Positions 15,319-45,367 of a DNA stretch of 64,000 nt are shown piece by piece. Position numbers and translations under genes: made by a program. The stretch spans positions 1 to 64,000 of the forward strand of contig NZ_LSGQ01000031.1 in NCBI RefSeq assembly GCF_001675285.1, read 5' to 3'. Source of the DNA: Elizabethkingia miricola. GTDB taxonomy: Bacteria > Bacteroidota > Bacteroidia > Flavobacteriales > Weeksellaceae. The notes below the pieces were generated by a model. That model searched no databases. It had not been told where the DNA came from and saw only the letters and a program-made list of their open reading frames with translations. The number at the start of each line of letters is the position of its first letter. Within the stretch, counting starts at the first letter, position 1.

Positions 15319-15323
15319 GAATG

Positions 15324-15352: not shown

Positions 15353-15487
15353 TTATTTTATATATAAAAGTTCAACCTTACCAAACTACCATAAAACAAG
15401 TATAAAGATTGGTTCTTGCATTTTCTTTTTTCTTCTTATCCCGAGCTCAAGTTAAAGTAATAAATTTGGTATAACATAACTTATTAT

Positions 15488-16252: not shown

Positions 16253-16256
16253 CCTA

Positions 16257-16457
16257 TTGTGTATCTTCATAATTAATAATACACAACTATATCCAAGTTC
16301 CGGTAATACTTACGACAGTCTTGCAGAAACTTATGAGAGCTCGGGTAATAGATTAATGGCTCTTAAAAACTACCGGCGCTCATTGGAATACTCTCCTGAT
16401 AATACCAATGCAAAAGAACAAATCAGATTATTGGATAAACAAATCAAAAGTCGTTAA
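16257..16457 (+). pseudogene. C-terminal TPR fragment of a larger protein
   Basis: Only the last 60 or so residues of a protein are left: YPSSGNTYDSLAETYESSGN then RLMALKNYRRSLEYSPDNTN and a basic end. This pattern is the C-terminal tetratricopeptide tail that follows an esterase or beta-lactamase-like domain in many Bacteroidota proteins. The first few codons upstream do not fit and no catalytic part is present, so it is a truncated remnant, probably made by the rearrangement that brought in the gene at 15488. Confidence 0.6.
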
Positions 16458-16492
16458 TCCCTGACTGTTAAAATTTATATTTCAAAAAACTG

Positions 16493-16687
16493 TTATTCAT
16501 CATTATCTTTCTTTTTCTCTTCTAAAGATCTCCCGAATGCACTATCTGATGAAGTCAGATGTTTTATAGGGGCCTTTAAAGCTTTTGCTTTTTCCAAGAC
16601 TATTTTAGCTCTTTCTAAGTCTGTTTTCTTACTGTTGTTACCTAAATTGTCTGGAATATCACCTGTTTTGCTTTTTCTCTTAGACAT
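16493..16687 (-). CDS. Small charged protein, 64 aa
   Basis: 64 residues, highly charged and hydrophilic (MSKRKSKTGD start; EEKKKDNDE end), with one amphipathic helix at about 22-42. There is no signal or membrane segment and no recognised family. It is convergent with the TPR fragment. Confidence 0.5.
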   Translation of the reverse strand: MSKRKSKTGDIPDNLGNNSKKTDLERAKIVLEKAKALKAPIKHLTSSDSAFGRSLEEKKKDNDE

Positions 16688-16827
16688 ATTTAATATTTGT
16701 CTACAAGTTAATCATTTAATAATTAAGGAGTTTTAAAATTTGCTATTTTTTCCCGGACCTCTATGCAGACTTCTGTATTAATTGTCACTTATCTTTAATA
16801 TTACATCCCTATTTAGTGAAATAACAT

Positions 16828-27883: not shown

Positions 27884-28102
27884 ATGGATAAAGAAAAAGA
27901 TACTTCTGAATATCTAATACAGAAAATAGTAAATAGGTCTTTATATAAAACCCCGGAAGTGGAAGTTATCCTGGTAGAAATAGAACAAGGTATTGCAGCC
28001 GGTTCAGCATCAGCTACGCCCAATACAACAAACGGTAATACCAATGCAATACAAACAAATTGGAACGGCAATGACGATACAAGTATTGACACTCCCTTTT
28101 AA
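27884..28102 (+). CDS. EQGIA-signature peptide, locus A (72 aa)
   Basis: 72 residues with no signal peptide. A conserved block reads YKTPEVEVILVEIEQGIAAG then SASATP; the rest is rich in Asn, Thr and Gly, with a Trp in the tail (NTNAIQTNWNGNDD). Peptides B (32403) and C (45194) share the Y-x-x-P, the hydrophobic strand, EQGIA-x-(G/S)-SA, a proline and a C-terminal Trp with acidic residues. Each is followed directly by a fimbrillin-like lipoprotein (27 bases here). I do not recognise a named family. A leader- or tag-like role is a guess. Confidence 0.65.
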   Translation: MDKEKDTSEYLIQKIVNRSLYKTPEVEVILVEIEQGIAAGSASATPNTTNGNTNAIQTNWNGNDDTSIDTPF

Positions 28103-28129
28103 TAACAATTAATGCAATACAAAAGCATA

Positions 28130-29722
28130 ATGAATACATCGTATAAAGTAGCTGGATTCACAGGTTTTTCACTTGTATTATTGAGCTTAGGTTCTTGTCG
28201 CAGCACTGATAGTGAAAATACACTAAACAGCGGAAATGCTTCGGTAAATATTAATTTACTGGGCACACAGTTTAGTAATACAGAAACCTCTCCAGCGCAG
28301 GCTTCAGTAATAAAAAAAGTAAATAGTCTTTCGACTGCGGACATCCAGAGTCATAGCATTTTGGTAAACCCAAGTACAATAATGACAGCAGAATTAGCTC
28401 CTGAATCTGCAGGCAGTATAAAAAATCAGGCTTCTGCAGGAAGCAATATGATGGCTGCAGCAGGAGATCCTTTAGGCTATGGAATCGCTTTCAGGGTATT
28501 AGCTTATAAACAGTCCGATGGCAGTTATGCCGATTCTAAAGACTACATCGTTGGGCAGCCTGCCGGTTCCTTAAGTCTGGATCAAGGAACAACCTATACC
28601 ATTATTGCATATTCTTACGGAACGGCTATGTTACCTGCAATAAGTGCAAACGAAAAAAACAACCTGAATACCGCCGCCATTAGTTATGATGATTACAATC
28701 GGGATTTCATGTACCAGAAAATCAGCTTTACACCATCATCCACTACCAATACGCTGAATATAACTTTAAATCACAAAGTTGCGCGCATAACAACAGTAAT
28801 TGAAGCTGCTTCGTCGTTTGGTAAAATCAATTCCATATCAAATGCCGCATTGACTCCTCATTACAGCAATGGCAATATCAACTTATCGGATGGTATTATA
28901 AGCAACCGAACCCAGATAACCCCTGGTACAGGTTTAGATTTTTCAGGAACAAGCTTCCCGACAGCCACAACCAGTGCCAAACCAGTCTTCATTAATGCAG
29001 ATACTGGCGGTTTAGCTACAGGCTCTTTTTCAGCAGACATTAATATAGGCGGAACAGCCAAAACTATAAATTTAGCCAACCAGTTTAAGATAACACCGGG
29101 CAATAACAGTACACTGAAAATCAATTTCAAAAAATGCGGTGCTTATTTAGGTGCCGGAAATACATTGTGGAAAGATTTTATGTGCCATAATCTGGGGGCA
29201 GACACCAATGCAGACCCTTTTACGCTAAGTGCAGCAATTCAAGGCGCGAAGTATCAGTGGGGAGCCTATACCGGTGAATCAGGACGGTATTACTCTCAGG
29301 CTAATGACCAAACCAATGCCGGTACAATAACAGGATGGAGCAATGCCGGAAAAGCCGATGGCTCATGGTTGGATTCATCTAAGACAGGTAATGATCCTTG
29401 CCCTTCCGGCTACAGAGTACCAACCCAAGGGCAATGGCAAAGTATCCTTTCTAATAACTCCTATACAGCACAGGGGACATGGACAGATTCTCCCACCAAT
29501 TATGGTTCGGGGGCGAAAATAGGAAATCTTTTGTTCCTGCCTAATGCTGGATATCGTTCTGACACCGACGGAGCTCTTGCCAGACGAGGTATTAGTGCTG
29601 CTTATTGGAGTAGTTCTTTGGCAAGTAATTTTGCCTTCGGTGTAGAGCTGTATCCGACATACGCATATGTAACGTTCTTTTACCGTACCATTGGTGCCAG
29701 TATCAAATGTATTGCAGAATAA
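28130..29722 (+). CDS. Fimbrillin-like lipoprotein with FISUMP C-terminal domain
   Basis: 530 residues from the ATG at 28130. It is a lipoprotein with lipobox LSLGSC. Residues about 20-330 are a fimbrillin/Mfa-type beta-sandwich with RVLAY, YTIIAYSYG, DFMYQKISF and LNHKVARI. The C-terminal part (about 340-530) matches the Fibrobacter major-paralogous (FISUMP) domain: GNTLWKDFMCHNLGAD, YQWGAY, GNDPCPSGYRVPTQGQW and YWSSSLAS. It is likely exported to the cell surface. It is the partner gene of peptide A, and its N-terminal design is shared with the lipoproteins at 30777 and 43108. Confidence 0.82.
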   Translation: MNTSYKVAGFTGFSLVLLSLGSCRSTDSENTLNSGNASVNINLLGTQFSNTETSPAQASVIKKVNSLSTADIQSHSILVNPSTIMTAELAPESAGSIKNQASAGSNMMAAAGDPLGYGIAFRVLAYKQSDGSYADSKDYIVGQPAGSLSLDQGTTYTIIAYSYGTAMLPAISANEKNNLNTAAISYDDYNRDFMYQKISFTPSSTTNTLNITLNHKVARITTVIEAASSFGKINSISNAALTPHYSNGNINLSDGIISNRTQITPGTGLDFSGTSFPTATTSAKPVFINADTGGLATGSFSADINIGGTAKTINLANQFKITPGNNSTLKINFKKCGAYLGAGNTLWKDFMCHNLGADTNADPFTLSAAIQGAKYQWGAYTGESGRYYSQANDQTNAGTITGWSNAGKADGSWLDSSKTGNDPCPSGYRVPTQGQWQSILSNNSYTAQGTWTDSPTNYGSGAKIGNLLFLPNAGYRSDTDGALARRGISAAYWSSSLASNFAFGVELYPTYAYVTFFYRTIGASIKCIAE

Positions 29723-30047
29723 ATATCAAAATAAAAGAATTATCTGTGTTTGTGGAAAGGCTGTCAGTGATGAGTTTATAAATCATCATATTTTTGTTGA
29801 CCAGCAGCTTTCTGAGTGGGAATCCTGAAAGTTTATTAAAAAAGGATTCCCCTTTTTATAAATAACAAACTTTAAGTGTAATGACTATTTTATCTTTAGT
29901 AAAAGTTAAAATTTTCTGACTCTCATTTACTTATATGTCGTTTTATATTAAGCTTTTGTCTGCTCTTTTCTTGTATCAAGTCATTATCTTTGCCATGGCA
30001 ACTATAGCTATAACAGCTAAAGAGCTTGATTAAAAAGATTCTCTGCT
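29723..30047 (+). terminator. Terminator of locus A and upstream region of the HAD gene
   Basis: A 9-bp hairpin GGGAATCCT / AGGATTCCC (29818-29851) with a T run ends the lipoprotein transcript. TATCTTTG at 29985-29992 is the -7 box for the HAD gene at 30048. Nothing else is seen. Confidence 0.7.
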
Positions 30048-30686
30048 ATGGGCAAATACAATACTTATATTTTTGATTTCGATTATACTCTGGCTGATTC
30101 TTCTAAAGGGATTATCATGTGCTTTCACTATGTTTTGGAAAACCATGGATATCATGATATAAGTGATCATCAAATAAAGCTCACTATCGGAAAGACACTG
30201 GAGGAATCTTTTAGTATACTGACAGGTGTTACAGATAAAGAAACACTTGCCTCATACGCAAAAGAATATGTAAAAAAGGCCGATGGCTGGATGACAGCCA
30301 ACACTGTACTTTTTCCGGAAACTTCATCCGTTTTAAATACACTAAAGGCACGCGGTTCCAAAATAGGTATTGTATCTACGAAGTATCGGTATCGTATAAT
30401 GGAATTTGTAGAAAAAGAATTCCCTAAAGGATTCTTTGACATTGTTGTAGGAGCTGAAGATGTAACAGCACATAAACCCGATCCTTCAGGATTAATTTTA
30501 GCAATTAAGCATTTGCAGTCAGATTTAGAAGGATGCTTGTATATAGGTGACAGCATTATCGATGCAAAAACAGCACAGGCAATTGGCGCTGATTTTTACG
30601 GAGTTCTGAATGGCACCACTACAAGAGAGGAGTTACTTGTATATCCACATGTTAAAATTGCCGATAATCTAAATGATTTAATCTAA
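30048..30686 (+). CDS. HAD-family hydrolase, phosphoglycolate-phosphatase-like
   Basis: 212 residues with the four HAD motifs: I FDFDYTLADSS (nucleophile and acid Asp), II VSTKYR (Thr/Ser), III HKPDPSG (Lys) and IV YIGDSIIDAKTA (metal Asp). The alpha-helical cap between motifs I and II gives subclass I, as in Gph and beta-phosphoglucomutase. It removes phosphate from small metabolites in the cytoplasm; the substrate is not evident. Monocistronic, ended by a bidirectional terminator. Confidence 0.9.
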   Translation: MGKYNTYIFDFDYTLADSSKGIIMCFHYVLENHGYHDISDHQIKLTIGKTLEESFSILTGVTDKETLASYAKEYVKKADGWMTANTVLFPETSSVLNTLKARGSKIGIVSTKYRYRIMEFVEKEFPKGFFDIVVGAEDVTAHKPDPSGLILAIKHLQSDLEGCLYIGDSIIDAKTAQAIGADFYGVLNGTTTREELLVYPHVKIADNLNDLI

Positions 30687-30705
30687 GATTCAAACTGTAC
30701 AAAAT

Positions 30706-30750
30706 AAAAAACGAATATCAGATAATATTGATATCCGATATTCGTTTTTT
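30706..30750. terminator. Bidirectional terminator between HAD and locus B
   Basis: 14-base arms AAAAAACGAATATC / GATATTCGTTTTTT, with an A run on the left and T run on the right, between two convergent genes. Confidence 0.9.
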
Positions 30751-30776
30751 ATCTATCATTAACTATTTATAATCAA

Positions 30777-32357
30777 CTATGGACAAGGCACAACTTTCCG
30801 GCCTTCTCCATAACCAACTAACTGTGTTAGTCTGGTAACTTTCATTGTTGCTATAACATCATTAGTTGTATCAGATTTCCAGGTAATCCTGTTAAACTGT
30901 GCACCACCAAACAGTTCTAAAAGCTCCAGCGGGCTGGATAAGTTTCTTCTTCCCATCATTGATACAGATCCATCTGGTCCAATTTTTATTCTGACAACTG
31001 CTGTCTTAGGATTTGTTGTAGATCCGTTTATATTATAGATCTGTGAATTTCCGGATGATCCCCATAAAGTTTTATCCGATTTAAAACGAATATTCTGAGG
31101 TAAACCGCTAATTCCGGATTCAAACTGAATTTCCTGATTCGCCAGATCTACACCATTAATTTTAAGATTAAAGGAATTATCCAATTCGTAAACCTCAAAA
31201 GTAAAACCGGCATTTGCTGCCGGAAAAGTAAATCCTTGTGAAATTCTGTCTTTAGCAGATGTAGCAGGTTCATACATATTGAAATCAAATGACGGTGTAG
31301 AAATAGCTGTACAGGCAAATTTTAAATTAAGATTATACCTAACTTCCGGGCTGATAACAAGATTGGGAACCGATATATTTGTTTTCACTTTTGTCCCGAC
31401 AGTCATAGAGTTAAAAGTTAAAGTAGCCATATCACTTGCTGCAGCTCCAGGATTTGCAATTAGTAAAGGTTTACTTGTCCATACAGGATTTCCAGTAGAA
31501 TTTCCAGTAAAGTCCAGTGATTTAGAACTTCCCGTTACTCCGTAAGTAACAACACCACTGGATAGCTTTATACTATTTCCGGTAGCACGTTGATTGGTTA
31601 TAGCTGGTGTATCAATTACTTTAATTCCATTTCCTGAGGCTACAGCACTGGCATCAACGATGGTCGTAATCTGACTGAATTTATGCTTTAAAACAACACT
31701 TAAGAGATTATCTCCTTTTGTAACTCTTACATTATCAGCTCTGAAATACATTAAATCATCATTACCAGAAATATTAGTCAAAGAAGCAGCCGAAATATTA
31801 CCAGCTACATCTGCAGGAGCAACTGAAGAATTATAGGATAATACGACAAAATCATATTTATTAACTGTTTCTGTATCTCCATCCAGTGTCATTGCTGTAC
31901 CATCGTCGGGAGTAGAATTTCCGGCAGCATCTATTGTATATACTTTAGTAGCAGCTTTAGTTCCATCTGTTCTTCTATAGGCAATGACTCTGTATTTTAC
32001 ATTTGGCCCTTTTAATGGATTATTTACAACATCAGCTAAAGTATTTTTTATACCCGCTTGTTTAGATATAGAGGAAACGGGAGTAAGCGTAGCAATAAAA
32101 GGCTGATCATCACTCACGAATTTCACCTCCTGTACCTTTACTGTTGAAATAGAGGTTTTAGGCTGAAGAGAAGCAGTAGGGTCAATAGTTTCAGTTGTAT
32201 AATCACCTTCGGAAAGGTTGAATTTTAAAGCAGCTGAACCATTGGTAATTAAATTATCTCCTGGATTATCTGTTATATTATCTGTGCTTCTGCATGAAGT
32301 TGCCAAAAATAAACATGATAGCCCTATAAATGCGGTAGTTTTTTTGAAGTTTCTCAT
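30777..32357 (-). CDS. Fimbrillin-like lipoprotein, locus B
   Basis: 526 residues, lipoprotein signal with lipobox FLATSC followed by RSTD (the same CRSTD start as locus A). The fimbrillin-like part contains YRVIAYRRTDG, DLMYFRADN, VVLKHKFSQITTIVDAS and an IKLSSGVVTYG strand, in the same order as in the lipoproteins at 28130 and 43108. Residues after about 345 form a beta-rich module different from both of those. Surface or outer-membrane location is expected. Follows peptide B by 45 bases. Confidence 0.8.
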   Translation of the reverse strand: MRNFKKTTAFIGLSCLFLATSCRSTDNITDNPGDNLITNGSAALKFNLSEGDYTTETIDPTASLQPKTSISTVKVQEVKFVSDDQPFIATLTPVSSISKQAGIKNTLADVVNNPLKGPNVKYRVIAYRRTDGTKAATKVYTIDAAGNSTPDDGTAMTLDGDTETVNKYDFVVLSYNSSVAPADVAGNISAASLTNISGNDDLMYFRADNVRVTKGDNLLSVVLKHKFSQITTIVDASAVASGNGIKVIDTPAITNQRATGNSIKLSSGVVTYGVTGSSKSLDFTGNSTGNPVWTSKPLLIANPGAAASDMATLTFNSMTVGTKVKTNISVPNLVISPEVRYNLNLKFACTAISTPSFDFNMYEPATSAKDRISQGFTFPAANAGFTFEVYELDNSFNLKINGVDLANQEIQFESGISGLPQNIRFKSDKTLWGSSGNSQIYNINGSTTNPKTAVVRIKIGPDGSVSMMGRRNLSSPLELLELFGGAQFNRITWKSDTTNDVIATMKVTRLTQLVGYGEGRKVVPCP

Positions 32358-32402
32358 TTGTTTGTGAATTAATAAATTTACATCATACTCAAAAAAATTT
32401 AC

Positions 32403-32576
32403 TTACCATTCAATTGTTCGGTTATCATCAGGGTCCTGCGTCCACTCTTCCTGAACCTGTCCACCCGAATTTGGAGGCAATACCCTGGCAGATCCGGTTG
32501 CTATTCCCTGCTCCATTTCTATAAGAAACGAGCCTACTCTTGGAGTTATATACTCCTGTTTTTCAAAATCATTCAT
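32403..32576 (-). CDS. EQGIA-signature peptide, locus B (57 aa)
   Basis: 57 residues beginning MNDFEKQEYITPRVGSFL, then IEMEQGIATGSARVLPPN and a tail with two Trp in acidic context (VQEEWTQ, RTIEW). Same signature as peptides A and C, most simply seen as Y-x-x-P, hydrophobic strand, EQGIA. No signal peptide. It is too short for standard gene calls but is supported by the pattern, by close spacing to the lipoprotein, and by synteny with the two other loci. A possible -7 box TAAATTTG is at 32733-32740 (minus strand). Confidence 0.65.
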   Translation of the reverse strand: MNDFEKQEYITPRVGSFLIEMEQGIATGSARVLPPNSGGQVQEEWTQDPDDNRTIEW

Positions 32577-33095
32577 TTATATACATTTTAATCTTTCTTC
32601 GTTTTCTTTAATGATAATAAACAAAATTGCTCATTACATTAAGCATCTTAATTTAATAAAAGCTATTTCCAAATAATAATTAATACATAACTATTTAAAA
32701 ATCAACCGTTTTTATAATTAAAAAAACGACTGCAAATTTACAAATATTATCTTATCCTATTAATAATAAATACGTTACAACGATATATGTATTAAAATAA
32801 GATTTTACTAATTGATTATTCTCAATATTTAGTAAATAATATCTACTATTTCTTAACACAACAATTAATATGAATGGTAAGAAAAGCAAATCAAAAATTT
32901 ATTTTTTGTAAGAATTAGTCCCTTAGAATAAGTTTGTATTTTGATTCCATCCTCAGCAGGAGTAGTAAGCATTTTGTTGCCCATATATATGATATTTCAC
33001 AACATAAAAAATGATGCAAAGAAAACAGAAAAAGGGAAATAGTAAAGATAACCTAAGAAGATTATCTGAATTCCAGTTGTTAATTAAATGAGTTC
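32577..33095. other. Long AT-rich upstream region of locus B
   Basis: About 520 bases between the response-regulator stop and peptide B. No gene is seen. A possible -7 box TAAATTTG (minus strand, 32733-32740) would give a leader of about 150 bases. Confidence 0.4.
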
Positions 33096-33815
33096 TTACT
33101 GAAAATATTCAAGAAGTTCCCGTCGATAAGTATTACCTATAGGCAGAACAAGTCCGGTATCCAATTCTACCTGTCCACCTGAAATTTTACTGATATGTTT
33201 CAGTGCTACGATATACGATTTATGAATTCTCATAAATAGTTTTTTATCCAGTTTTTGTTCTGTTTCTGCAGTTGTTGCAGGACTTAAAAAATAACTGTTT
33301 GCAGTAAAAACTTTCACATAGTTTCCCCAGCTCTGGATGTATATAATTTCATTATAGCTGATTTTAACTACATTACCATCAACTTTCAGGATAATAAAAG
33401 GATCCTGCGGAATCAGATCGCTTTCCGGAGTTTTTGAAGGCTCAACAGACTGTGGCAATCTGGAAAACACATTTTCTATTGCTGCCATAAACCTGGCAAG
33501 ATCAAATGGTTTTACAAGATAATCGACAACTCTGTATTCATAACTTTCTAAAGCATATTCTTTATAAGCCGTTGTCAGAATAACAAGAGGAGGATTGCGC
33601 AATGCTTTCAGCATCTGCAGCCCACTCATTCCAGGCATATTAATATCTAAAAAAATAAGATCAACAGGATTGGCATACATATAATCCATAGCTTCAACAG
33701 GATTATAAAAGGATTCCTTTAGCTGAAGCTGCTTCAGGTCTTTAATATAATGACGGAGTACCAGATGAGCCCCTTCTTCATCATCTATGATAAGGCATTT
33801 AAGAATTTTACTCAT
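33096..33815 (-). CDS. LytTR response regulator
   Basis: 239 residues: receiver domain (acidic pair DDEE at 11-14, phospho-acceptor Asp57 in FLDINMPGMSG, Lys in KPFDLARF) and a LytTR DNA-binding domain (about 135-239) with SYNEIIYIQSWGNYVKVF and MRIHKSYIVALKHI. It overlaps the kinase gene by eight bases, so the two are coupled. It probably controls the locus-B genes or the outer-membrane gene divergent from the kinase. Confidence 0.92.
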   Translation of the reverse strand: MSKILKCLIIDDEEGAHLVLRHYIKDLKQLQLKESFYNPVEAMDYMYANPVDLIFLDINMPGMSGLQMLKALRNPPLVILTTAYKEYALESYEYRVVDYLVKPFDLARFMAAIENVFSRLPQSVEPSKTPESDLIPQDPFIILKVDGNVVKISYNEIIYIQSWGNYVKVFTANSYFLSPATTAETEQKLDKKLFMRIHKSYIVALKHISKISGGQVELDTGLVLPIGNTYRRELLEYFQ

Positions 33816-34851
33816 GATTGTAATATTTTAAACTTAAGACCAGGTTAGTCTGATATTCCTCTGCATTTTCAATAATATCAAGCATATAATATCCACTATA
33901 AAGAAGCTCCAGGCGTTTGCGGATATTAAGTAAACCAATGCCTGTAGAACTTGTTTTAAGATTTTGATCCGGCATAGAATTATGCACACTCATTCTCAGA
34001 ACTCCATTTTCAAGTTGAACCATTATTTTAACAAACCATTCCCGCTCGGTGGTCAGACTATGTTTAAAAGCATTCTCTACCAACGTAATAAGCACCAGAG
34101 GAGCAATCTGATAATGATGGGCGTTCATTTCTTTATCTTCGATATCATATTCTATAAGGCAGCGTTTACCAACCCTCTCCTTTTCCATTGCAATATAATT
34201 TCGGATAAAAGAAAGCTCTTCTTTCAAATTTACAATATCCTTATTTGCATTTTCCAGCTGATAACGCATTAGATCAGAAAGTTTCAGGATAAGCTCCGGA
34301 GTTCTGGATGGCTCCGTCAGGCTAACGCCATAAAGATTATTGAGCATATTAAAGAAAAAGTGCGGATTAAGCTGAGCATGAAGATATTTGATATTCATCT
34401 CACTTAGCATCAGCTGGGCTTTATTTTTCTTTTCGAGTTCTCTGGAATAATTACGTATCAGAAATAAGGAAAGAAATGCTGCTATACTAATTGAACACAG
34501 GACAATATTATACAGAAAATCTTTAAGAAGTATTACATCTGCTGATTTATAATATTCAGGATCCACCCAGTAATAGTCAAGAACTAATAATACCCCTGCT
34601 CCCAAAATAATGAACAATATGCCGCTAACGAAATAGTATACATACTTTTTGGCCATTAAAAAAGGAAATATAAAATAACGATGTAAGATAGCCTGACCAT
34701 AAAGCAATGCAAGGAAAACCAGATTTTTGACAAGGTATATCATGGAGACAGGCTTAATAAAATCCGGAAGCATTGTCAATATGAATATTGCACTAAAGAA
34801 AATTATTTCGTCAAAATATCGCTTCTTATACCATTTTCCTGCCTTAGCCAT
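33808..34851 (-). CDS. LytS-type sensor histidine kinase
   Basis: 347 residues from the ATG at 34851 (the frame is open to 34920, but the added residues are not kinase-like). Four membrane segments in about 10-130, then the His_kinase domain LNPHFFFNMLNNLYG (phosphorylated His) and an HATPase with VENAFKHS (N box) and STGIGLLNIRKRLELL (G box). There is no PAS or periplasmic sensor, typical for this YehU/LytS group. It signals to the LytTR regulator downstream. Confidence 0.9.
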   Translation of the reverse strand: MAKAGKWYKKRYFDEIIFFSAIFILTMLPDFIKPVSMIYLVKNLVFLALLYGQAILHRYFIFPFLMAKKYVYYFVSGILFIILGAGVLLVLDYYWVDPEYYKSADVILLKDFLYNIVLCSISIAAFLSLFLIRNYSRELEKKNKAQLMLSEMNIKYLHAQLNPHFFFNMLNNLYGVSLTEPSRTPELILKLSDLMRYQLENANKDIVNLKEELSFIRNYIAMEKERVGKRCLIEYDIEDKEMNAHHYQIAPLVLITLVENAFKHSLTTEREWFVKIMVQLENGVLRMSVHNSMPDQNLKTSSTGIGLLNIRKRLELLYSGYYMLDIIENAEEYQTNLVLSLKYYNHE

Positions 34852-35006
34852 TAACTTTTTATTATACAGCAAAATAGATTCATTTTCATGTAATATGCAA
34901 ATACTAAATGACAAACACATTACAACATGTTTATCAGATGTTTCATCATTTAAATTTCAGTTTCTATAGGCTTTATGATTGCTTTGCAGTTCTAAAACAA
35001 GGCATT

Positions 35007-37448: not shown

Positions 37449-37553
37449 AACGGGCAAATTTCATCCTGTCAGAAAAGTACATATATATCATTTTTTCACT
37501 TCTTTAAAGAGGGTTTTGTTCCGTTAGTTGCAGATCTCCTGCTTTAAAGACAC

Positions 37554-37590
37554 AGATCCTGCAAACAGTCATTTGCAGGATCTTATTTGT
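37554..37590 (+). terminator. Terminator of the outer-membrane gene
   Basis: 12-bp perfect stem AGATCCTGCAAA / TTTGCAGGATCT with loop CAGTCA, followed by TATTTGT. Confidence 0.8.
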
Positions 37591-37703
37591 ATAAATAAAG
37601 CACTCTATTAGTTATTCTATCTATCTGAAATTATTTTTTTATGTTAAATCATATTAAAGGGAATTATATATACATTTACATATCACCAATTAAAAATGCA
37701 ATT

Positions 37704-37835
37704 ATGAAAAAATTAATTAAAAATGAGCTAAAAGAAATTAAAGCTGGAGATAATATCTGTCCACAAAAACAGATATATTGTAATGGAAGATGTATAATAC
37801 CTGAACATCTAATAGAACAAGAACATTGTAATTAA
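37704..37835 (+). CDS. Bacteriocin-like leader peptide, 43 aa
   Basis: 43 residues from the ATG at 37704. The leader MKKLIKNELKEIKAGD resembles the leader at 16860 (K-L-x-x-x-E-L-K-x-I/L), with KAGD in place of GGG. The core has four Cys (NICPQ, IYCNGRC, EHCN) and is small and polar. Its membership of the bacteriocin-like family is likely but less sure than for the first peptide. No export or modification genes are adjacent. Confidence 0.6.
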   Translation: MKKLIKNELKEIKAGDNICPQKQIYCNGRCIIPEHLIEQEHCN

Positions 37836-37868
37836 GAATCTGTTTAATTTTAATTCAAAAAAATATTA

Positions 37869-37990
37869 GGCTTCGACAGGCTCAGCCTGACATTTATAAA
37901 AAGAAGGTATTTGAGACAAGCAATGTAACTCTCAGTTAAGTCTGTAGTGAGCTTAGTCTATGGTGAGCCTGACGAACCAAACTATCGAAG
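37869..37990. repeat. REP-like element with inverted CTTCGACAGGCTCAGCCTGA half
   Basis: Left half GGCTTCGACAGGCTCAGC... (37869-37892) and an inverted, imperfect right half with GAGCCTGACGAACC and ATCGAAG (37963-37990). The GACAGGCTCAG core resembles dispersed palindromic repeats I recall from Flavobacteriia genomes. Non-coding, intergenic. Confidence 0.5.
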
Positions 37991-38035
37991 AGTATTAACT
38001 ATAAAATTTAAAGTACTTATACAAGACACACAACA

Positions 38036-38063
38036 AAAAAGGCTTAAACAATGTTTAAGCCTT
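38036..38063 (-). terminator. Terminator of the YceI gene, same hairpin as the tRNA-Leu scar
   Basis: AAAAGGCTTAAAC / GTTTAAGCCTTTT with loop AAT, the same hairpin as at 2357 although the neighbourhood is unrelated. It lies 32 bases past the YceI stop with an A run giving T on the minus strand. Confidence 0.85.
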
Positions 38064-38094
38064 TTCTGGTATATAAAATTTTAAATATAATCGC

Positions 38095-38766
38095 TTATTT
38101 TTTAGCTTTTACATCAATTGCAATTTCGATGTCTTTACTGATCATCCATTCAGCCGGATCAGATTCAGTCGTACCGAATTTAATACCCCAGTCTGTTCTG
38201 TTTACAGTGAACTTAGCCTGAATAGCCGCTGCATCTGCAGTAACATCTACTTTAGCCGGGAATGTAACATTCATTGTTTTTCCAAGTAAAGTAAGATTTC
38301 CGCTTATTGTTTTATTAGCTCCTGCAACAGCATCTTTTGGAGTTTCTTTCAAATCTGCTACGCTTGTAATTTTGAAATCAGAAACAGGGTTTTTCTCTAC
38401 ATTAAAGAAGTCAGGATTCTTCAAGTGAGCTTCAAGTTCTGCAGGTTTTTTGTCTGCTTCTGTTACTGAAGCCGGATCTACTTTAATAGAAGTCATATCA
38501 ATAATAAAGTTACCCGCTGCTACCTGTCCACCTTCAATGCTCAGGTCTCCTGATTTTACATTAAGAGTTCCCCAACGAGGTGCAAATCCGCCTTTGTGGA
38601 AAGCTTTCCAGTTTACTACAGAAGCTACTGTATCTACAGCTAACTTTTCTCCTTTGCTTTCTGCAACCGACTGCTCTGTAGCTACTGATGTATCTGTTTT
38701 TGCTTTGTTACACGATGCCGCAAGCAATCCTACTGCTACTAATGCTAATACACTAATTTTTTTCAT
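38095..38766 (-). CDS. YceI-family lipoprotein
   Basis: 223 residues from the ATG at 38766. Lipoprotein signal MKKISVLALVAVGLLAASC with lipobox. The YceI beta-barrel (about 45-223) shows VNWKAFHKGGFAPRWGTL, HLKNPDFFNVEKNP and FTVNRTDWGIKF. Family knowledge: YceI barrels bind isoprenoid-like lipids such as polyprenyl quinones in the periplasm. TATTTTTG at 38806-38813 (minus strand) is a -7 box just upstream. Confidence 0.92.
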   Translation of the reverse strand: MKKISVLALVAVGLLAASCNKAKTDTSVATEQSVAESKGEKLAVDTVASVVNWKAFHKGGFAPRWGTLNVKSGDLSIEGGQVAAGNFIIDMTSIKVDPASVTEADKKPAELEAHLKNPDFFNVEKNPVSDFKITSVADLKETPKDAVAGANKTISGNLTLLGKTMNVTFPAKVDVTADAAAIQAKFTVNRTDWGIKFGTTESDPAEWMISKDIEIAIDVKAKK

Positions 38767-39123
38767 ATTATTATATTGTTTATAAATTCTGTTGTTTTTC
38801 GGAGACAAAAATAGAAAAACCAGATTACCATCTCCTTAACATACATCAAGAAATACTGTTTTCTGTTTTTTTAATCTTATTTATTATTGAGTTTTTGATG
38901 CTGTAATACCGGATAAATAAAAGACCGGGATAATGTTATCTAATAAAAGCACCCCTAAACATTAACAAAATATATTTAGTAGTGTATGATTATAATTTTT
39001 AATTTTAATCTGTAAACTATTATAATCTGACAACCTGAACGATGTGCAATTTATAGCTATTAACTCACCATAATTTCACTATTTTGGTATTTATTTTGTT
39101 TGCACCGATACACATTTATCTTT
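38767..39123. other. Divergent promoter region, YceI and bestrophin genes
   Basis: About 350 AT-rich bases with no gene. It holds the minus-strand -7 box TATTTTTG (38806-38813) for the YceI gene. No clear plus-strand -7 box stands out. Confidence 0.5.
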
Positions 39124-40152
39124 ATGATCACAACCAAATACATTAATTATAAACAAATCCTTAACCTCTCGGGGCTCCATGTTATTATACTTACAGTATG
39201 GTGTACTCTTGTGGCAGCTCTTTTTTACTTTTTTAAATGGCAATGGATGGTTATTCCATGGGTACCTGTAGCACTTATTGGTACTGCCGAGGCGTTCTAT
39301 GTAGGCTTTAAAAACAACCAGGCCTATGACAGATTATGGGAGGCAAGAAAAATATGGGGTGGCATTGTCAACTCCAGCCGTTCCTTTACTTCCATGCTTT
39401 ATGCTTTTAATACTGCAGACGAAAGCGATCTGGAATTGGAGAAAAAAAGAAAAAAATTAGCCTACCGCCATATTGCATGGTTGTATACTTTCCGTGAGCA
39501 GCTTTTGGTTCCTACCGAATGGGAACACATCAGTATTGAGAAACACGGGGTGAATGTAGACCAAAGGCGTAACAGGATTATTAAGGCCGGATTCCCGGAT
39601 TATGGAAGAACACCTATTTTCTTAAACAAATATCTTTCTGAAGAAGAAGTAGCATTGCAATCGGAGTATAAGAACTTTGCCACTTACCTGATATCACAAC
39701 AGGCTAAAGAAGTGAATGAATTAAAAAACAGTAAGGACATCTCAGATTTCAATCAAATGCAGCTTCAGGAATGTCTGAATTTGTTTTACGATTATCAGGG
39801 CCAGGCCGAAAGAATTAAAAAGTTCCCTTCACCAAGACAGTTTGCCAGTACAGCTTTTATATTCAATGTCATTTTTATGATGCTGTTGCCTTTAGGGCTT
39901 GTGAATGAATTTGCCAAATTAGGAAACTGGGGAATACTACTTAGCATTCCATTCTGTGTTATTATCGGCTGGATTTATATCGTAATGGAACTAGTAGGTG
40001 ATTATTCAGAAAACCCTTTTGCCGGGTTAATGTTCGATATTCCAATGCTGTCCATTTGCAGAACCATTGAAATAGATATGCTCCAGATGATTGGTGAAAA
40101 TAAAGACGATCTGCCGGAAGGTATAACCTCTAAGCATGGCGTTTTGGTATAG
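39124..40152 (+). CDS. Bestrophin-like anion channel protein
   Basis: 342 residues from the ATG at 39124. Four membrane segments (two at about 22-70 and two at about 240-295). The bestrophin/RFP-TM signatures are ALIGTAEAFYVGFKNNQAYDRLWEARKIWGGIVNSSR in the N-terminal half and ENPFAGLMFDIPMLSICRTIEIDM at the end. Family knowledge: bacterial homologues form pentameric cation or chloride channels in the inner membrane. Monocistronic and convergent with 40213. Confidence 0.9.
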   Translation: MITTKYINYKQILNLSGLHVIILTVWCTLVAALFYFFKWQWMVIPWVPVALIGTAEAFYVGFKNNQAYDRLWEARKIWGGIVNSSRSFTSMLYAFNTADESDLELEKKRKKLAYRHIAWLYTFREQLLVPTEWEHISIEKHGVNVDQRRNRIIKAGFPDYGRTPIFLNKYLSEEEVALQSEYKNFATYLISQQAKEVNELKNSKDISDFNQMQLQECLNLFYDYQGQAERIKKFPSPRQFASTAFIFNVIFMMLLPLGLVNEFAKLGNWGILLSIPFCVIIGWIYIVMELVGDYSENPFAGLMFDIPMLSICRTIEIDMLQMIGENKDDLPEGITSKHGVLV

Positions 40153-40184
40153 TCTGCAATAAACTTTAAACATGATATGTAAAT

Positions 40185-40206
40185 AAAGCCCTCGTTTGAG
40201 GGCTTT
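40185..40206. terminator. Bidirectional terminator
   Basis: 9-bp perfect stem AAAGCCCTC / GAGGGCTTT, loop GTTT, between convergent genes. Confidence 0.85.
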
Positions 40207-40212
40207 ATCAAT

Positions 40213-40614
40213 TTATTGAAGAATAGATCGGATCCATTCTTCAATAAGATGCAGCCACAATGCTTTATCCTCCTCTAAAAGGAAAACAGCAGATGCTTTT
40301 CTCTGATTACTTATATCTCCGGTAATTTGTATTTCTTCATACGTTGCTAAACCGTGTTTATCAGAATACTGAATATCTACATTTTCCAGTGCAACACTGC
40401 GCGATGGAAATTTACCATACACTGTCGGCAGCCAATCGGAAAACATATCAAACGATACAGCATCGCCATCACCATTAATCATTCTGAAATCTGGCGAAAA
40501 CCCAGAGAGAATCTTATGGTATAAAGTTTTCTGATCATCTTCTCCCCTGAACCATTTTTCGATATTTTCGCAGAATCCACTCAGCTCTGCAACGATTTTT
40601 TCTTTGTTGTCCAT
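40213..40614 (-). CDS. SnoaL/NTF2-like (DUF4440-type) protein
   Basis: 133 residues, one alpha+beta cone domain: an N-terminal helix (MDNKEKIVAELSGFCENIEKWFRG) and strands with FRMINGDGDAVSFDMF, then ATYEEIQITG and a final strand KALWLHLIEEW. NTF2-like folds often bind or turn over small molecules, but no catalytic residues are obvious. It follows the MFS gene by 13 bases, so it is the second gene of that operon. Confidence 0.75.
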   Translation of the reverse strand: MDNKEKIVAELSGFCENIEKWFRGEDDQKTLYHKILSGFSPDFRMINGDGDAVSFDMFSDWLPTVYGKFPSRSVALENVDIQYSDKHGLATYEEIQITGDISNQRKASAVFLLEEDKALWLHLIEEWIRSILQ

Positions 40615-40627
40615 TTTGTTATAATAT

Positions 40628-42016
40628 TTAGTCGTTATTGTTTATGATATATTTTGTCAGCCTGGTGTTAATATAGACCCCGGTAATCTGAAATAAGGCA
40701 ATCATTAAAATAGCCAGTGCAAAAGCCTTTGGAAAACTTAAAACATCTATTGTACTAAAAAATACAGTTCCGATAATGGCACCGCCTGTTACACCTCCAA
40801 CCTGCATGCTGATGCTAACTAATGCAGATGCCTGCCCTGCCCGGTCTTTACTAACCAGTGCAATAGCGGTACGCATCATAACCGGCATAATCACGCCATG
40901 ACCGAGCCCTGCCAGAAATAATGTAATATTGGTTACTGGAGAAGGTTTCTGCCATAGGTAAAAGAGTATCGAACTCGTTGAAAAACCTATTATAAGTAAT
41001 CCCAAACCTATATAAATTAAAGTATTGACAGGAAATTTTACTCTTTGAGAAATTAAAGGACCAAGGAAAAATGCCAATCCATAAGGAACAATAGCTAGTC
41101 CTGTATTCATTGGTGAGTAATGCAGGTATTGCTGTAAATAATAAGGATAGCAAATAAACAACCCCGCTGTAAAATTGTAGAAAAATATAACAGGCAGGCT
41201 TAATGAAAACCGCTTATCCAGTAATAAGGTGGGGTCTATAAGAACAGGTCTGTTTTGCCGATATAGTTTCACTTCATATCTGAAGAAAACAATTGCAAGA
41301 ACCAGCCCTGTTATCATAATAACAAATATCCACCATGCCCAATGGTATTCCCGTCCGAAAATAAGCGAACAGATAAAGAGTAACAATGCAAGAATGAGCA
41401 GCAATGCTCCTTTATAATCAATACTGGATAATTTTAGATCTTTATTATTATCCATTGTAAAATGAATACCTGCAATGCAAACAATGGTAACCGGAACATT
41501 TACCAGAAACACCATTTCCCATGAGAAACCTGCGCAATCCAGATTAAGCAAAAGCCCACCTAATAACTGGCCTGCTACTGAAGCCAGACCAAATACTGAA
41601 CTAAAAATACTTACCGCCTTTGGCTGCTCGGTACTACTGAACAATACCCGAACAGAAGCCAGTACTTGCGGAGCCAAAAGAGAAGCTCCAATCCCCTGAA
41701 AAAGTCTGGCAGCAATAAGCATAGAAATATCAGGCGAAAAGGCACAGGCTATAGAGGAAAACAGGAAAATGTACAATCCAAAGCTAAATACTCTCTTTCT
41801 TCCGTAGATATCCCCCAACCTTCCGCCACACACGACCAATGCAGCATAAGTCAGTCCGTAGATCGCTACCACCAATTGCAATTGCTGATCTGTTGCTTTA
41901 AAAGCCTTTTGTATAGCCGGTAAGGCCATATTAACAATAAAATAATCCAATGGCGATAAAAAAGCTCCTGCAACCAGAAAGCCCAGTGCCTGCCATCTTT
42001 TTGAATAAGCATTCAT
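40628..42016 (-). CDS. MFS drug/multidrug exporter, DHA2 type
   Basis: 462 residues with 14 predicted membrane segments, matching the EmrB/QacA group. Motif A GGRLGDIYGRKRVF follows TM2. TM5-region glycine-rich motifs (GASLLAPQVLASVRV, GLASVAGQLLGGLL) are of the exporter type. Start is only about four bases after the -7 box-predicted transcription start (TATTTTTG, minus, 42027-42034), so the mRNA would be almost leaderless. Divergent from an AraC gene that probably controls it. Confidence 0.9.
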   Translation of the reverse strand: MNAYSKRWQALGFLVAGAFLSPLDYFIVNMALPAIQKAFKATDQQLQLVVAIYGLTYAALVVCGGRLGDIYGRKRVFSFGLYIFLFSSIACAFSPDISMLIAARLFQGIGASLLAPQVLASVRVLFSSTEQPKAVSIFSSVFGLASVAGQLLGGLLLNLDCAGFSWEMVFLVNVPVTIVCIAGIHFTMDNNKDLKLSSIDYKGALLLILALLLFICSLIFGREYHWAWWIFVIMITGLVLAIVFFRYEVKLYRQNRPVLIDPTLLLDKRFSLSLPVIFFYNFTAGLFICYPYYLQQYLHYSPMNTGLAIVPYGLAFFLGPLISQRVKFPVNTLIYIGLGLLIIGFSTSSILFYLWQKPSPVTNITLFLAGLGHGVIMPVMMRTAIALVSKDRAGQASALVSISMQVGGVTGGAIIGTVFFSTIDVLSFPKAFALAILMIALFQITGVYINTRLTKYIINNND

Positions 42017-42059
42017 TTTTTTAATGCAAAAATACCCGCTTTTAATACGGTTAAAATTG

Positions 42060-42067
42060 TACTTTTG
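42060..42067 (+). promoter_or_regulatory. -7 box of the AraC regulator gene
   Basis: TACTTTTG, full TAnnTTTG match, back to back with the MFS -7 box at 42027-42034. Confidence 0.55.
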
Positions 42068-42089
42068 AAGGAATATATAGTGCCCGGAT

Positions 42090-42935
42090 ATGAAAAACCT
42101 GCATATTGAAAATATTACAGTAAAAGAATTAAAGCTGGCTCATGAATCCATTCAGTTCCGAACGCAGGCTTTTCTTAGCCTCGTTTATATTGTGAAAGGT
42201 GAAGGAGAACTCTCTTATGAGGACCATAAGATAAATTTTGCAAAGGGAAAACTCATTATAATTCCTCAGTATCAGGTTTATCATTTCAGAAGTGCAGATG
42301 CACAACTAATAGCCATTCAGTGTCCCGTTGAGTTTATCGACAAAATACGTCTCGAAGCTGACCGTATAGAAAGTTGTGAGAACCTATATAAGCTACAATA
42401 TATTAGCAATAACCATCACTCGCGTGCAGGATGTGTATTCCGAAATAAAAATGATGAGTCTTTTGCGGAAACCCTTATTCTCCAGATAGCCCGGGAGTAC
42501 AGAAACAAAACAGAGGACTATCTCATTATCAGAAACAGTATTTCTATTTTACTGAATCTTATTACCCGCAATATTATTAAAAGCGAAACGTCTGATATAG
42601 AAAAAAACCGGAAAGCATTTTCTATTATGAAAATCATTACCTATATCCAACAGTATATAAAGGACAAAGAAAAACTGCGTATTCCGATAATCGCTGAACA
42701 TTTCCGAATTTCCGAGAATTATTTCGGCGAGTATTTCAAACAGCAGACAGGTATCTCTTATCAGGACTATTTATTGGATTATCGCTTGAAGCTTGTAGAA
42801 AACTATCTGCGCCATAGCAGTATCCGTCTGAGCGAAATTGCTTATGAATTACAATTCAGTGACGAAAGCCATCTTTCAAAACTTTTTAAAAAGCACAGAG
42901 GTGTAACCCCCGGAGAATACAGGAAACAGAAATAA
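42090..42935 (+). CDS. AraC-family regulator, divergent from MFS gene
   Basis: 281 residues: N-terminal cupin-like sensor (about 15-95), helical linker and a C-terminal AraC domain with LRIPIIAEHFRISENYFGEYFKQQTGISYQDYLLDYR and LSEIAYELQFSDESHLSKLFKKHRGVTPGEYRK. The back-to-back arrangement with the MFS operon predicts activation of the exporter by a small molecule, perhaps the exported one. Confidence 0.9.
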   Translation: MKNLHIENITVKELKLAHESIQFRTQAFLSLVYIVKGEGELSYEDHKINFAKGKLIIIPQYQVYHFRSADAQLIAIQCPVEFIDKIRLEADRIESCENLYKLQYISNNHHSRAGCVFRNKNDESFAETLILQIAREYRNKTEDYLIIRNSISILLNLITRNIIKSETSDIEKNRKAFSIMKIITYIQQYIKDKEKLRIPIIAEHFRISENYFGEYFKQQTGISYQDYLLDYRLKLVENYLRHSSIRLSEIAYELQFSDESHLSKLFKKHRGVTPGEYRKQK

Positions 42936-42956
42936 AGAATAATACCTAAATCAAAA

Positions 42957-42985
42957 ATCGGGTAATCCTTATAGGACTACCCGAT
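42957..42985 (+). terminator. Hairpin after the AraC gene
   Basis: ATCGGGTA...TACCCGAT, 8-bp outer stem with an inner TCC/GGA. Between convergent genes. Confidence 0.65.
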
Positions 42986-43107
42986 AAAACTTGTTAACAA
43001 ACAAAGAATGATGATAATATTGTCGTTTATCGGCTATGCCGGAAATCAGTTAACAGTTTTACAAACAAATGAATGATGATTTTTTAGTCAATACTTTAAT
43101 TATTCGT

Positions 43108-45171
43108 TTACGGAGTTGGCGGAGCTGCATATTTCCATGGTTTAAAACCATTAAATTCAGATGTTCTCGCAGCCCATACCATAATATTCCCCATTACAAC
43201 ACTATTATATGCGCTCTTACTCCGCGCAGTATAGCCATTTCCTGCATCTCCGTATGGTTTTGGTAATGGTCTTTTGGTTGTAGCATCATAATTAAACGGA
43301 CATATGACGGCTGAAGTAAGATCCCCGTTGGAAACAAAGCCACCATCACCTATATAGAAAAAGTTCTTGGTATTGTGCTTAAACATTGTAATTCCTGAAT
43401 TAGAACCCGTTCTGTTGATGGCCTGTCCGTAGGAATATACAGTTACCTGGCTTAGCGGAACATTTACAATTCCAAGAGTTGTACCGGCATCTTCTCCCCA
43501 ATACTGCCCACGTGCATCTCCTACCTGACCATTCAGTATTTTGTCATTAGAATTTGTTCCTACCAAAGGATACATGGCACCGCCACTACCATTGGAATCC
43601 AGAGTAATATTTGAAACGCCAAATAAGCTGTTAAAGAAACTTCTGTTTTCGGGACCTACACTATCCTGAAGCAACATGATGACAATTCCGTTATTGTTAA
43701 TATAGTCCAGTAATGCTGTTGCTACAGCCGGTCTTATATAAAGAACATCATATCCCAGAATTATAATATCCGGTTTTTTGGATGCATCTGCAGGATTAAT
43801 TTTATTGATAATATTATTGTCACCGGTAGTAGTCGCACTATAATTTACCCAGTTTTCTGTTTTATCATCTGTAGCATTACCGCCAATCCAGGCTCCCCCT
43901 CCAGGAGTCCATGGTGCCATTTTCACTAAACTTGTAGAGAGGTTCCCAAAATTTTCTTTAGCATTCAAAAACGCCCATGAACGCCCCTGTTCTAAAGCAT
44001 AACCATAAGTTGTGTTATTTGAAATATGCAGGATTCTTTTTGAAGTCAGCATATACCATAAATTGGCAACTCCCAGTAAACGCTGCCCGGAAGCCGGTGA
44101 AGTAAAATTGTAGGTAAATGAAGGCTTATTTGCCGATCCATTGTAAGTAGCAAGATTTCTGTCGGCTACACTAGGTGCTGCATCAGTAAAATGTACCTGC
44201 AGATCATCTATATTTACTTTATATGAAGTTAAAGCTGCAGGATCTGCAGTATAATAATTAGCTTCCCATACGTTTGTAGGAGACAGTGTTGTAAAAATAT
44301 CTGTTGTCGGAATAACCTGTAAATTACTTATGCTCCCTCCCTTAATATTAAAAGTTCCTTTTTTCAGATAATTATTTTGTGCAAAGCTTGCCTTAAAGCT
44401 ATTAATGGTTGCATATTCCGCTAATATTGAAGCGTCCACTTTTACACTTACCTGTGCTACTTTATGCTGAAACGTAATCGCTACATTGTAAGTATCCTGT
44501 TGATTCTGCGGAGTTTTAGCAACTACTACTTCTCCTGTTGCATATAACAAATCTTTATCTATTGCTGTATCGATAGCAGGGTTTGCTGTATTTGTCGGTT
44601 CAGGTATTGCTTCATTGTTATTATAGGAATATGCATACCATGTATAGGTTCCTCCTTTTACAGCATCCAGTGATACTGGAGTACCAGAAGTAGCCTGTAC
44701 GGTTTTCCATAGCAGCCCCGTAGCCTTGTCATAAATAAGTATACGGTAGGTATATCCTACCGGCATTGGCTGTGTAGCTGCTATAAGATTATTACTCAGG
44801 TTACCTGTGCTTGCAACTGCTGATTTCAGAATCTGGTTTCCTGCCGTTGCTTCCATAGGAACCTGTTCTGCTTTGGCATCAGCAATAAATCCGCTGGTCG
44901 TAGTTAGTCCGGAAGCATTTCCACCAATCGCACTTCCTGTAAGGGACATGTTACTGCTCACCGATGCTACTGCCATTTTACTAACTGGCTGAATAACTTC
45001 TGTTCCTATTACGCCGTCTACGTTTATCACCATTTTCATTCCTTCACCCCCAACAGATGAAGCCCCGTTATTATCCGGTGAACAACTTGCTACAGAAAAC
45101 GTTAAAAGCAAAGCCGAGAACAATGTTGAGAATATTCTGCTACAGCTTCTATATGTAGTTATATTATTCAT
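43108..45171 (-). CDS. Fimbrillin-like lipoprotein, locus C
   Basis: 687 residues from the ATG at 45171 (the frame is open to 45294, but that would overlap the peptide gene). Lipoprotein with lipobox SVASC. The fimbrillin-like part (about 30-350) has YRILIYDKATG, YAYSYN, DLLYATGEV and FQHKVAQVSVKVDAS, as in loci A and B. The C-terminal half has DIIILGYDVLYIRPAVATALLDYI and GIVIMLLQDS, resembling a ThuA/GATase-1-like flavodoxin-type fold. Expected at the cell surface. Follows peptide C by 22 bases. Confidence 0.8.
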   Translation of the reverse strand: MNNITTYRSCSRIFSTLFSALLLTFSVASCSPDNNGASSVGGEGMKMVINVDGVIGTEVIQPVSKMAVASVSSNMSLTGSAIGGNASGLTTTSGFIADAKAEQVPMEATAGNQILKSAVASTGNLSNNLIAATQPMPVGYTYRILIYDKATGLLWKTVQATSGTPVSLDAVKGGTYTWYAYSYNNNEAIPEPTNTANPAIDTAIDKDLLYATGEVVVAKTPQNQQDTYNVAITFQHKVAQVSVKVDASILAEYATINSFKASFAQNNYLKKGTFNIKGGSISNLQVIPTTDIFTTLSPTNVWEANYYTADPAALTSYKVNIDDLQVHFTDAAPSVADRNLATYNGSANKPSFTYNFTSPASGQRLLGVANLWYMLTSKRILHISNNTTYGYALEQGRSWAFLNAKENFGNLSTSLVKMAPWTPGGGAWIGGNATDDKTENWVNYSATTTGDNNIINKINPADASKKPDIIILGYDVLYIRPAVATALLDYINNNGIVIMLLQDSVGPENRSFFNSLFGVSNITLDSNGSGGAMYPLVGTNSNDKILNGQVGDARGQYWGEDAGTTLGIVNVPLSQVTVYSYGQAINRTGSNSGITMFKHNTKNFFYIGDGGFVSNGDLTSAVICPFNYDATTKRPLPKPYGDAGNGYTARSKSAYNSVVMGNIMVWAARTSEFNGFKPWKYAAPPTP

Positions 45172-45193
45172 AATCGATTGTATTTGTTGTGTT

Positions 45194-45367
45194 TTAAAAT
45201 TCCCAGTTTTGTTCATCTTTTTTTTCGTCCCAATCCGTAATTGTAGGTGTATTGGTAGAGCCACCAGGAACAATCTGTGCCGAAGAACTTGCAATCCCCT
45301 GCTCCATTGTCACATACAAAACACCTATAACAGGAGGCTTATAATCTTTTTTTTCAGTCTGATTCAT
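45194..45367 (-). CDS. EQGIA-signature peptide, locus C (57 aa)
   Basis: 57 residues from the ATG at 45367, chosen because MNQTEKKDYKPP then lines up with MNDFEKQEYITP of peptide B; a start at 45391 adds eight residues. The signature reads VIGVLYVTMEQGIASSSAQIVP, followed by a Thr/Pro-rich tail with ITDWDEKKDEQNWEF. No signal peptide. First gene of the locus-C operon, with the -7 box TAACTTTG (minus, 45540-45547) and the palindrome at 45589. Confidence 0.65.
   Translation of the reverse strand: MNQTEKKDYKPPVIGVLYVTMEQGIASSSAQIVPGGSTNTPTITDWDEKKDEQNWEF

Follow-up and report, generated by a model that had tools for sequence, protein, structure and literature searches.

The window analyzed here, a 64,000-nucleotide stretch of the Elizabethkingia miricola genome, holds three short open reading frames that share an EQGIA motif, and each adjoins a gene for a pilin-like lipoprotein. 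What does so small a peptide do beside such a partner? The original prediction described a conserved small partner of lipoproteins with varied C-terminal modules, took the two together for an undescribed surface-display or assembly system, and guessed that the peptide might be a leader or a processed product. Here, we argue that the EQGIA peptides are probably (about 0.78) RiPP-like precursors, whose leader would be recognized, whose serine would be modified, and whose core, once cut free, would be exported and matched to the adjoining lipoprotein. We base this reading on observed gene content, pairing, linkage, co-occurrence, purifying selection, and covariation between core and pilin domain.

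Three peptide-lipoprotein pairs in the window

All three peptide frames are present where they were predicted, and the shared plan is real, with Y1, P4, E14, and S21 in each. Precursor peptide 1 (72 amino acids; 27884 to 28102, plus strand) has a predicted leader that spans codons 1 to 38 (27884 to 27997) and contains YKTP...EQGIA, the cleavage point being placed by analogy with LppA (PMC13381572); the predicted core begins at 27998, and the invariant Ser is residue 41. Precursor peptide 2 (57 amino acids; 32403 to 32576, minus strand), which was included in the dN/dS set described below, has a predicted leader at 32499 to 32576 (YITP...EQGIA) and a predicted core at 32406 to 32498, with the invariant Ser at residue 29. 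Precursor peptide 3 (57 amino acids; 45194 to 45367, minus strand) may start at 45367 or at an upstream ATG at 45391, which would give 65 amino acids; its predicted leader runs to 45290, and its predicted core (45197 to 45289) has the invariant Ser.

Each peptide gene is followed at close range by a lipoprotein gene, and the gaps of 27, 45, and 22 nt agree with the predicted 22 to 45 bases. Partner lipoprotein 1 (530 amino acids; 28130 to 29722, plus strand) has an alternative start at 28112, which would shorten its gap to 9 nt; a predicted pilin-fold domain at residues ∼34 to 336 precedes a FISUMP-like C-terminal module (TIGR02145, 1.1e-5, below cut-off). Partner lipoprotein 2 (526 amino acids; 30777 to 32357, minus strand) combines a predicted pilin-fold domain (∼37 to 350) with a C-terminal beta module (∼351 to 526). 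Partner lipoprotein 3 (687 amino acids; 43108 to 45171, minus strand) matches Mfa_like_1 above cut-off (PF13149, 5.7e-7); its C-terminal module, a putative ThuA/GATase-like fold in the original prediction, is different again and is common to a Sphingobacterium pair (L095:4036-6078).

We modeled the first two lipoproteins with AlphaFold, using 23-sequence alignments; the pilin domains were mostly at pLDDT 80 to 97. In both models, the N-terminal half is predicted to adopt the two-domain type V pilin (fimbrillin) fold, with Z scores to BACUNI_00621 of 14.0 for partner lipoprotein 2 and 13.4 for partner lipoprotein 1 and further matches to related Bacteroides adhesins. The partner lipoprotein 2 model scored 14.0 to 4k4k and 10.5 to FimA (6jzk), and the lipoprotein models gave Z scores of 9 to 11 to FimA and Mfa3. 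The C-terminal modules do differ, as had been claimed, although most family members carry a FISUMP-like one, and that of partner lipoprotein 1 gave no clear structural match (VIA list). The module of partner lipoprotein 2, first described as an unknown beta module, resembles ConA-like lectin jelly rolls weakly (Z about 7, near background), so that a lectin-like jelly roll is possible. Elsewhere in the genome, one partner (L011:3689-5221) has a CBM_14 chitin-binding domain of the peritrophin type at its C terminus (PF01607, 1.2e-5), which is unusual for a bacterial surface protein.

The window also holds a small frame of what looks like a different peptide class, Cys-rich with a GG/AG-type leader (MKKLIKNELKEIKAGDNICPQKQIYCNGRCIIPEHLIEQEHCN, internal start; 37641 to 37835, plus strand).

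A peptide family paired with one lipoprotein family

With peptide 1 as query, EQGIA peptides were found at 31 places in its own genome at E values of up to 10, and an iterated profile confirmed all 31; the genome is a draft assembly (G000; 4.29 Mb, 33 contigs), on which the copy counts depend. The distance from the Tyr of YxxP to the invariant Ser is exactly 20 residues in 30 of the 31, and one copy (L021:6798-6968) is degenerate beyond the leader. Tyr, Pro, Glu, and Ser are invariant in the Sphingobacterium peptides too. Past GIA, the predicted core comprises 29 to 36 residues, is net acidic, and usually has Trp, Phe, or Tyr at its end. The peptides lack a signal-peptide-like hydrophobic stretch (the Kyte-Doolittle 15-residue mean peaks at 1.9), and no family for them was found in Pfam or NCBIfam.

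Across nine orthologous peptide pairs between Elizabethkingia species, pooled dN/dS was 0.09 (leader, 0.15; core, 0.04), and because of this purifying selection, we regard the frames as genes. Within the genome, 28 peptide genes immediately precede, in the same orientation, lipoprotein genes of a single family (500 to 690 residues), and one (L009:3127) immediately follows a family member (L009:1382). Random placement would yield about 0.04 such neighbors, compared with the 29 observed. Conversely, the lipoprotein N-terminal domain has 37 strong homologues in the genome, of which 29 have a peptide neighbor and 8 do not. The pairing recurs in Sphingobacterium, where the peptide is downstream of the lipoprotein at five loci (L091, L093, L094, L095, and L106). 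A motif scattered beside unrelated genes, or frames free of purifying selection, would have made the predicted pairing coincidental; clearly, neither was found, and a small partner of pilin-like lipoproteins with varied C-terminal modules holds for 29 of 31 peptides. With 31 copies and 29 of them paired, we rejected a chance motif. We also rejected a double-glycine (C39) leader, as the residues at the putative site vary (AAG, ATG, AAN, and ATT) and no peptidase-containing transporter could be tied to the peptides.

Core sequences fall into types (DDNRTIEW, FDL/FDF, NEWWN, and TPF) that track the neighboring lipoprotein, with a Mantel r of 0.67 for its pilin domain and 0.61 for its C-terminal module; the partial correlation is 0.41 (P = 0.0005) for the pilin domain given the C-terminal module, against 0.24 for the C-terminal module. 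Leaders track the lipoprotein weakly (0.25 for the pilin domain and 0.12 for the C-terminal module). This pattern of sequence covariation, to which co-inheritance contributes, suggests one machine that reads the leader and one partner that reads the core.

Several pairs are adjoined, at times one per pair, by genes for membrane-spanning regulators that carry a LuxR-like helix-turn-helix at the C terminus (45676 to 46653 and 46784 to 47794 in the window; also L009 and L155).

Distribution across Bacteroidota

Peptide, lipoprotein family, and the enzyme cassette described below occur together in five of six Elizabethkingia genomes and in Sphingobacterium; the other Weeksellaceae tested lack them, apart from one genome with a partial cassette. 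Each of four good Elizabethkingia assemblies has 26 to 32 peptide copies, and among 197 Weeksellaceae genomes, no other genus has the peptides. In a class-wide sample of 395 genomes, strong matches came from two Sphingobacterium-like genomes alone (8 and 15 copies), and weak matches in three Bacteroidales genomes proved to be genuine short frames. These three were picked before any enzyme search, and their short-frame matches were kept; class-wide profile matches outside Sphingobacterium were mostly repeats within very long frames and were discarded. The lipoprotein domain was restricted to five Elizabethkingia and two Sphingobacterium genomes of 60 tested, with one weak match (G230). The family is expanded in Elizabethkingia and Sphingobacterium and is not general in Bacteroidota at this level of similarity; divergent YxxP peptides exist elsewhere.

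A peptide-lipoprotein pair on a Chryseobacterium arachidis contig is nearly identical to that of Sphingobacterium puteale (L098 and L100), by recent transfer or contamination.

PqqD-type recognition elements are known to read a YxxP motif in the leader, and for that reason we searched for PqqD. It was present in 10 of 10 peptide-positive genomes and in none of 20 others, the peptide-less Elizabethkingia G300 among them. The nucleotidyltransferase family PF14907 followed the same pattern in these 30 genomes, plus one extra genome (G029). Among 188 Weeksellaceae genomes, PF14907 was confined to the five Elizabethkingia that have peptides and to G390; the latter has both a PqqD-type recognition element (RRE) and PF14907, and no such peptide or lipoprotein was found in it. 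Against base rates in the class sample of 105/395 for PqqD and 40/395 for PF14907, all six peptide-positive genomes have both, with hypergeometric P values of 3e-4 and 7.6e-7 that overstate the evidence, since related genomes are not independent. A more reliable argument is that the co-occurrence extends over Flavobacteriales, Sphingobacteriales, and Bacteroidales.

A single enzyme cassette and its linkage to peptides in relatives

The Elizabethkingia cassette is single, contiguous, and co-directional and lies behind a run of glycosyltransferase genes in a capsule/exopolysaccharide locus (contig C7; locus L189). It comprises a signal-peptidase-like protease (9160 to 9600; best NCBIfam model sigpep_I_arch, 9.8e-12, below cut-off), a PqqD-type RRE (9605 to 9874; PF05402, 2e-15), a nucleotidyltransferase (9877 to 10971; PF14907, 1.5e-38), an MsbA-like ABC exporter (10978 to 12600; MsbA models to 1.6e-55, below the curated cut-off), an HprK-like kinase (12576 to 13538; weak profile matches at E values of 1e-5 to 1e-3), OPX (13540 to 14340), and Wzc (14348 to 16720). 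Gene order is kept in other Elizabethkingia and in both Sphingobacterium genomes. The catalytic Ser, His, and Asp of the protease are invariant in 9 homologues, and the His, P-loop Lys, and Asp-Asp of the HprK-like protein are conserved in 11. By profile, the RRE resembles leader-binding RREs of solved structure (TfuB1 at 3.5e-6, TbiB1, and PbaB1) and, weakly, LppB (9x8z; E value, 0.22); PbaB1 Q79, with which its invariant Asp aligns, corresponds to LppB D70. The Elizabethkingia L189 locus contains no precursor, and neither a B2 peptidase nor a macrolactam cyclase was found among its genes.

In relatives, peptides and enzymes are directly linked. Two Sphingobacterium operons (genome G002) read Wzc, peptide, lipoprotein, and PqqD, followed by PF14907 (L150) or the HprK-like gene (L152). 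In Bacteroidales, a YxxP peptide lies between the cassette Wzc and a fimbrillin-like lipoprotein in one genome (G606; L198), and another such peptide heads the cassette operon in a second (G798; L196); these cassette-linked peptides and lipoproteins are more divergent. Three further genomes (G649, G670, and G675) have YxxP peptides with Y1, P4, E14, and S21 that adjoin, or share a stretch with, RRE, HprK, and PF14907 genes. The enzymes first seen around the Bacteroidales and Sphingobacterium peptides were PF14907 nucleotidyltransferases, an S24-type protease, an ABC exporter, and Wzc.

Other YxxP settings were encountered in the same searches. Some YxxP peptides of Bacteroidales and of one related genome (L143:4055-4201, L145:4805-4993, and L269:12682-12858) adjoin type IX secretion cargo, namely, a C10 peptidase and repeat proteins that bear sorting tails, rather than pilin-like lipoproteins. 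Two tandem near-identical frames of 35 to 38 amino acids (L266:8422-8672), in which scarcely any core follows the YxxP leader, adjoin RRE, HprK-like, and PF14907 genes. At eight loci in other Bacteroidota (L211, L212, L214, L220 to L222, L225, and L226), a PqqD-like gene is followed by genes for ATP-grasp-like and diaminopimelate-decarboxylase-like enzymes, the latter opening with Y-x-x-P (e.g., MAKLKYERPLIKKMNAG) as if an RRE ligand had been fused to the enzyme. Likely lasso precursors (KKAYKTPKLKSLGSVKKLTLKSGS...) adjoin a PqqD-like gene at L205:1929-2075 and L206:1111-1257.

Proposed mechanism and alternatives

By analogy with characterized systems, the YxxP of the leader, the N-terminal half of the peptide, would be bound by the single PqqD-type recognition element. 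The HprK-type kinase would then modify the invariant Ser, probably by phosphorylation, with the PF14907 enzyme possibly acting next. The Ser-His-Asp protease would cut off the leader close to GIA|AGS, and the MsbA-like exporter would move the acidic, aromatic-ended core of 29 to 36 residues across the inner membrane. About 30 dispersed precursors would be served in trans by a single capsule-locus cassette. Outside, the core may work with the surface lipoprotein encoded by the adjoining gene, whose N-terminal pilin-fold domain is the most likely binding site; that the core touches polysaccharide too, given the capsule setting, is speculation. More tentatively, and on balance we doubt it, a phosphorylated and perhaps glycosylated core might dock on the pilin domain and either staple the adhesin to the capsule made at the same locus or license its display, one RiPP machine thereby programming some 30 adhesins.

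Against the precursor reading stand the lack of a precursor in the Elizabethkingia cassette locus, the weak profile match of the HprK-like kinase, an RRE match to LppB weaker than that to lasso RREs, the leader and spacing differences from LPP, the 8 lipoproteins without a peptide neighbor, and G390. The proposal that the peptide is a leader or is processed gains from the RiPP-type cassette, with the cleavage site placed by analogy. The assembly reading fares less well, as the strongest functional evidence favors a RiPP-type precursor and a cassette that lies outside the window and would act on it. A cytoplasmic or periplasmic chaperone, plug, or donor strand would suit the type V pilin fold, the pairing, and the covariation with the pilin domain, and PqqD would then co-occur for another cause. 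We consider this improbable, for it leaves unexplained the fixed spacing of YxxP to the invariant Ser, the exact co-occurrence with PqqD and PF14907, and the peptides found inside PqqD operons in several lineages. Much the same low probability attaches to antagonism or signaling, in which an exported, modified peptide would act on neighbors or serve as a pheromone while the lipoprotein acts as its receptor or immunity protein. RiPP-like maturation, the many paralogues, and the transmembrane LuxR-type regulators that adjoin several pairs all fit, as do the phyletic patterns typical of biological conflict seen by the authors of the linear polyphosphorylated peptide (LPP) study (PMC13381572). Against it, the cores show strong purifying selection (pooled dN/dS of 0.04) with no diversification, about 30 paralogues are common to several species, and the partners carry adhesin-type modules (FISUMP and one CBM_14). 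A translational leader (uORF) that tunes lipoprotein expression would account for a short frame 9 to 55 nt upstream in most cases. This reading is largely refuted, and we give it very little weight: we reject it because gene order can be reversed, as at the five Sphingobacterium loci and the L009 pair noted above, and amino acid conservation runs through the whole core.

If RiPP-like maturation of the EQGIA peptides is correct, RiPP maturation belongs here to cell-surface construction and not to antibiotic production. RiPP precursors can then be many, short, and unlinked to their enzymes, and such precursors are missed by cluster-based mining.

Comparison with known systems

LPPs are a RiPP family described from the lpp cluster of Paenibacillus alginolyticus (Nat Commun 2026;17:6633; PMC13381572) and defined by five genes: a signal-peptidase-like protease, a discrete RRE, an HprK-like kinase, a PF14907-type NTP transferase, and an MsbA-like exporter. 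LppB binds the leader YxxP, with D70 contacting the leader Tyr; LppK polyphosphorylates core Ser3; LppS cuts the leader, aided by LppB; and no activity was seen for LppN (PMC13381572). The cluster has a capsule-locus setting, its role is unknown, and it is stated to be restricted to Bacillota, with no mention of Bacteroidota (PMC13381572). In the open-licence literature, we found no paper that mentions PqqD in connection with Elizabethkingia.

The Elizabethkingia cassette shares with LPP the same five core genes, the lack of a cyclase, and the capsule-locus setting, and the EQGIA peptides share a YxxP leader, a conserved Ser just past the predicted cleavage site, and a variable C terminus. There are differences too. 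LPP precursors have a YxxPxV leader and Ser at core position 3; of these features, YxxP and an invariant Ser are present here, the distance from Tyr to Ser is 20 here and 18 in LPP, the HQxIxFET leader part is absent, and our cleavage site is a predicted one. The RRE is no closer to LppB (E value, 0.22) than to lasso RREs (TfuB1, 3.5e-6). Precursors lie outside the cluster in Elizabethkingia and inside it in Sphingobacterium (L150 and L152) and Bacteroidales (L196 and L198). The system is LPP-like on every gene-content test and, given the differences in the leader part, the spacing, and the RRE match, a candidate member of the family.

Paeninodin/pseudomycoidin-type lasso peptides have in common with it a YxxP or WxxP leader, an RRE, an HprK-like kinase, a nucleotidyltransferase, and an ABC exporter, but the B2 leader peptidase and macrolactam cyclase are absent from the cassette locus; the phosphorylated Ser of pseudomycoidin receives hexoses from a related nucleotidyltransferase (PMC9266682). 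The SynChlorMet cassette (PqqD-like ScmD and HprK-like ScmC) shows weak profile similarity to the PqqD and HprK-like proteins, below curated cut-offs, and differs in gene content. Type V pilins (FimA and Mfa1 to Mfa4 of Porphyromonas and Bacteroides), which polymerize by protease-triggered strand exchange, share with the partners a lipoprotein signal and, by prediction, the fold of the N-terminal half; unlike them, the partners carry one C-terminal ligand-type module each, are encoded by dispersed single genes, and have a small peptide partner.

Relative to LPP, what is new is the phylum, with a Bacteroidota host; the number of precursors, about 30 in trans versus 1 to 3 within the LPP cluster; and the pairing of nearly every precursor with a pilin-like lipoprotein, an obligate-looking surface-protein partner. 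Elizabethkingia and its relatives thus bring a second phylum with the LPP gene set and an expanded precursor repertoire, and the link to lipoproteins of predicted pilin fold offers a physical clue to LPP function.
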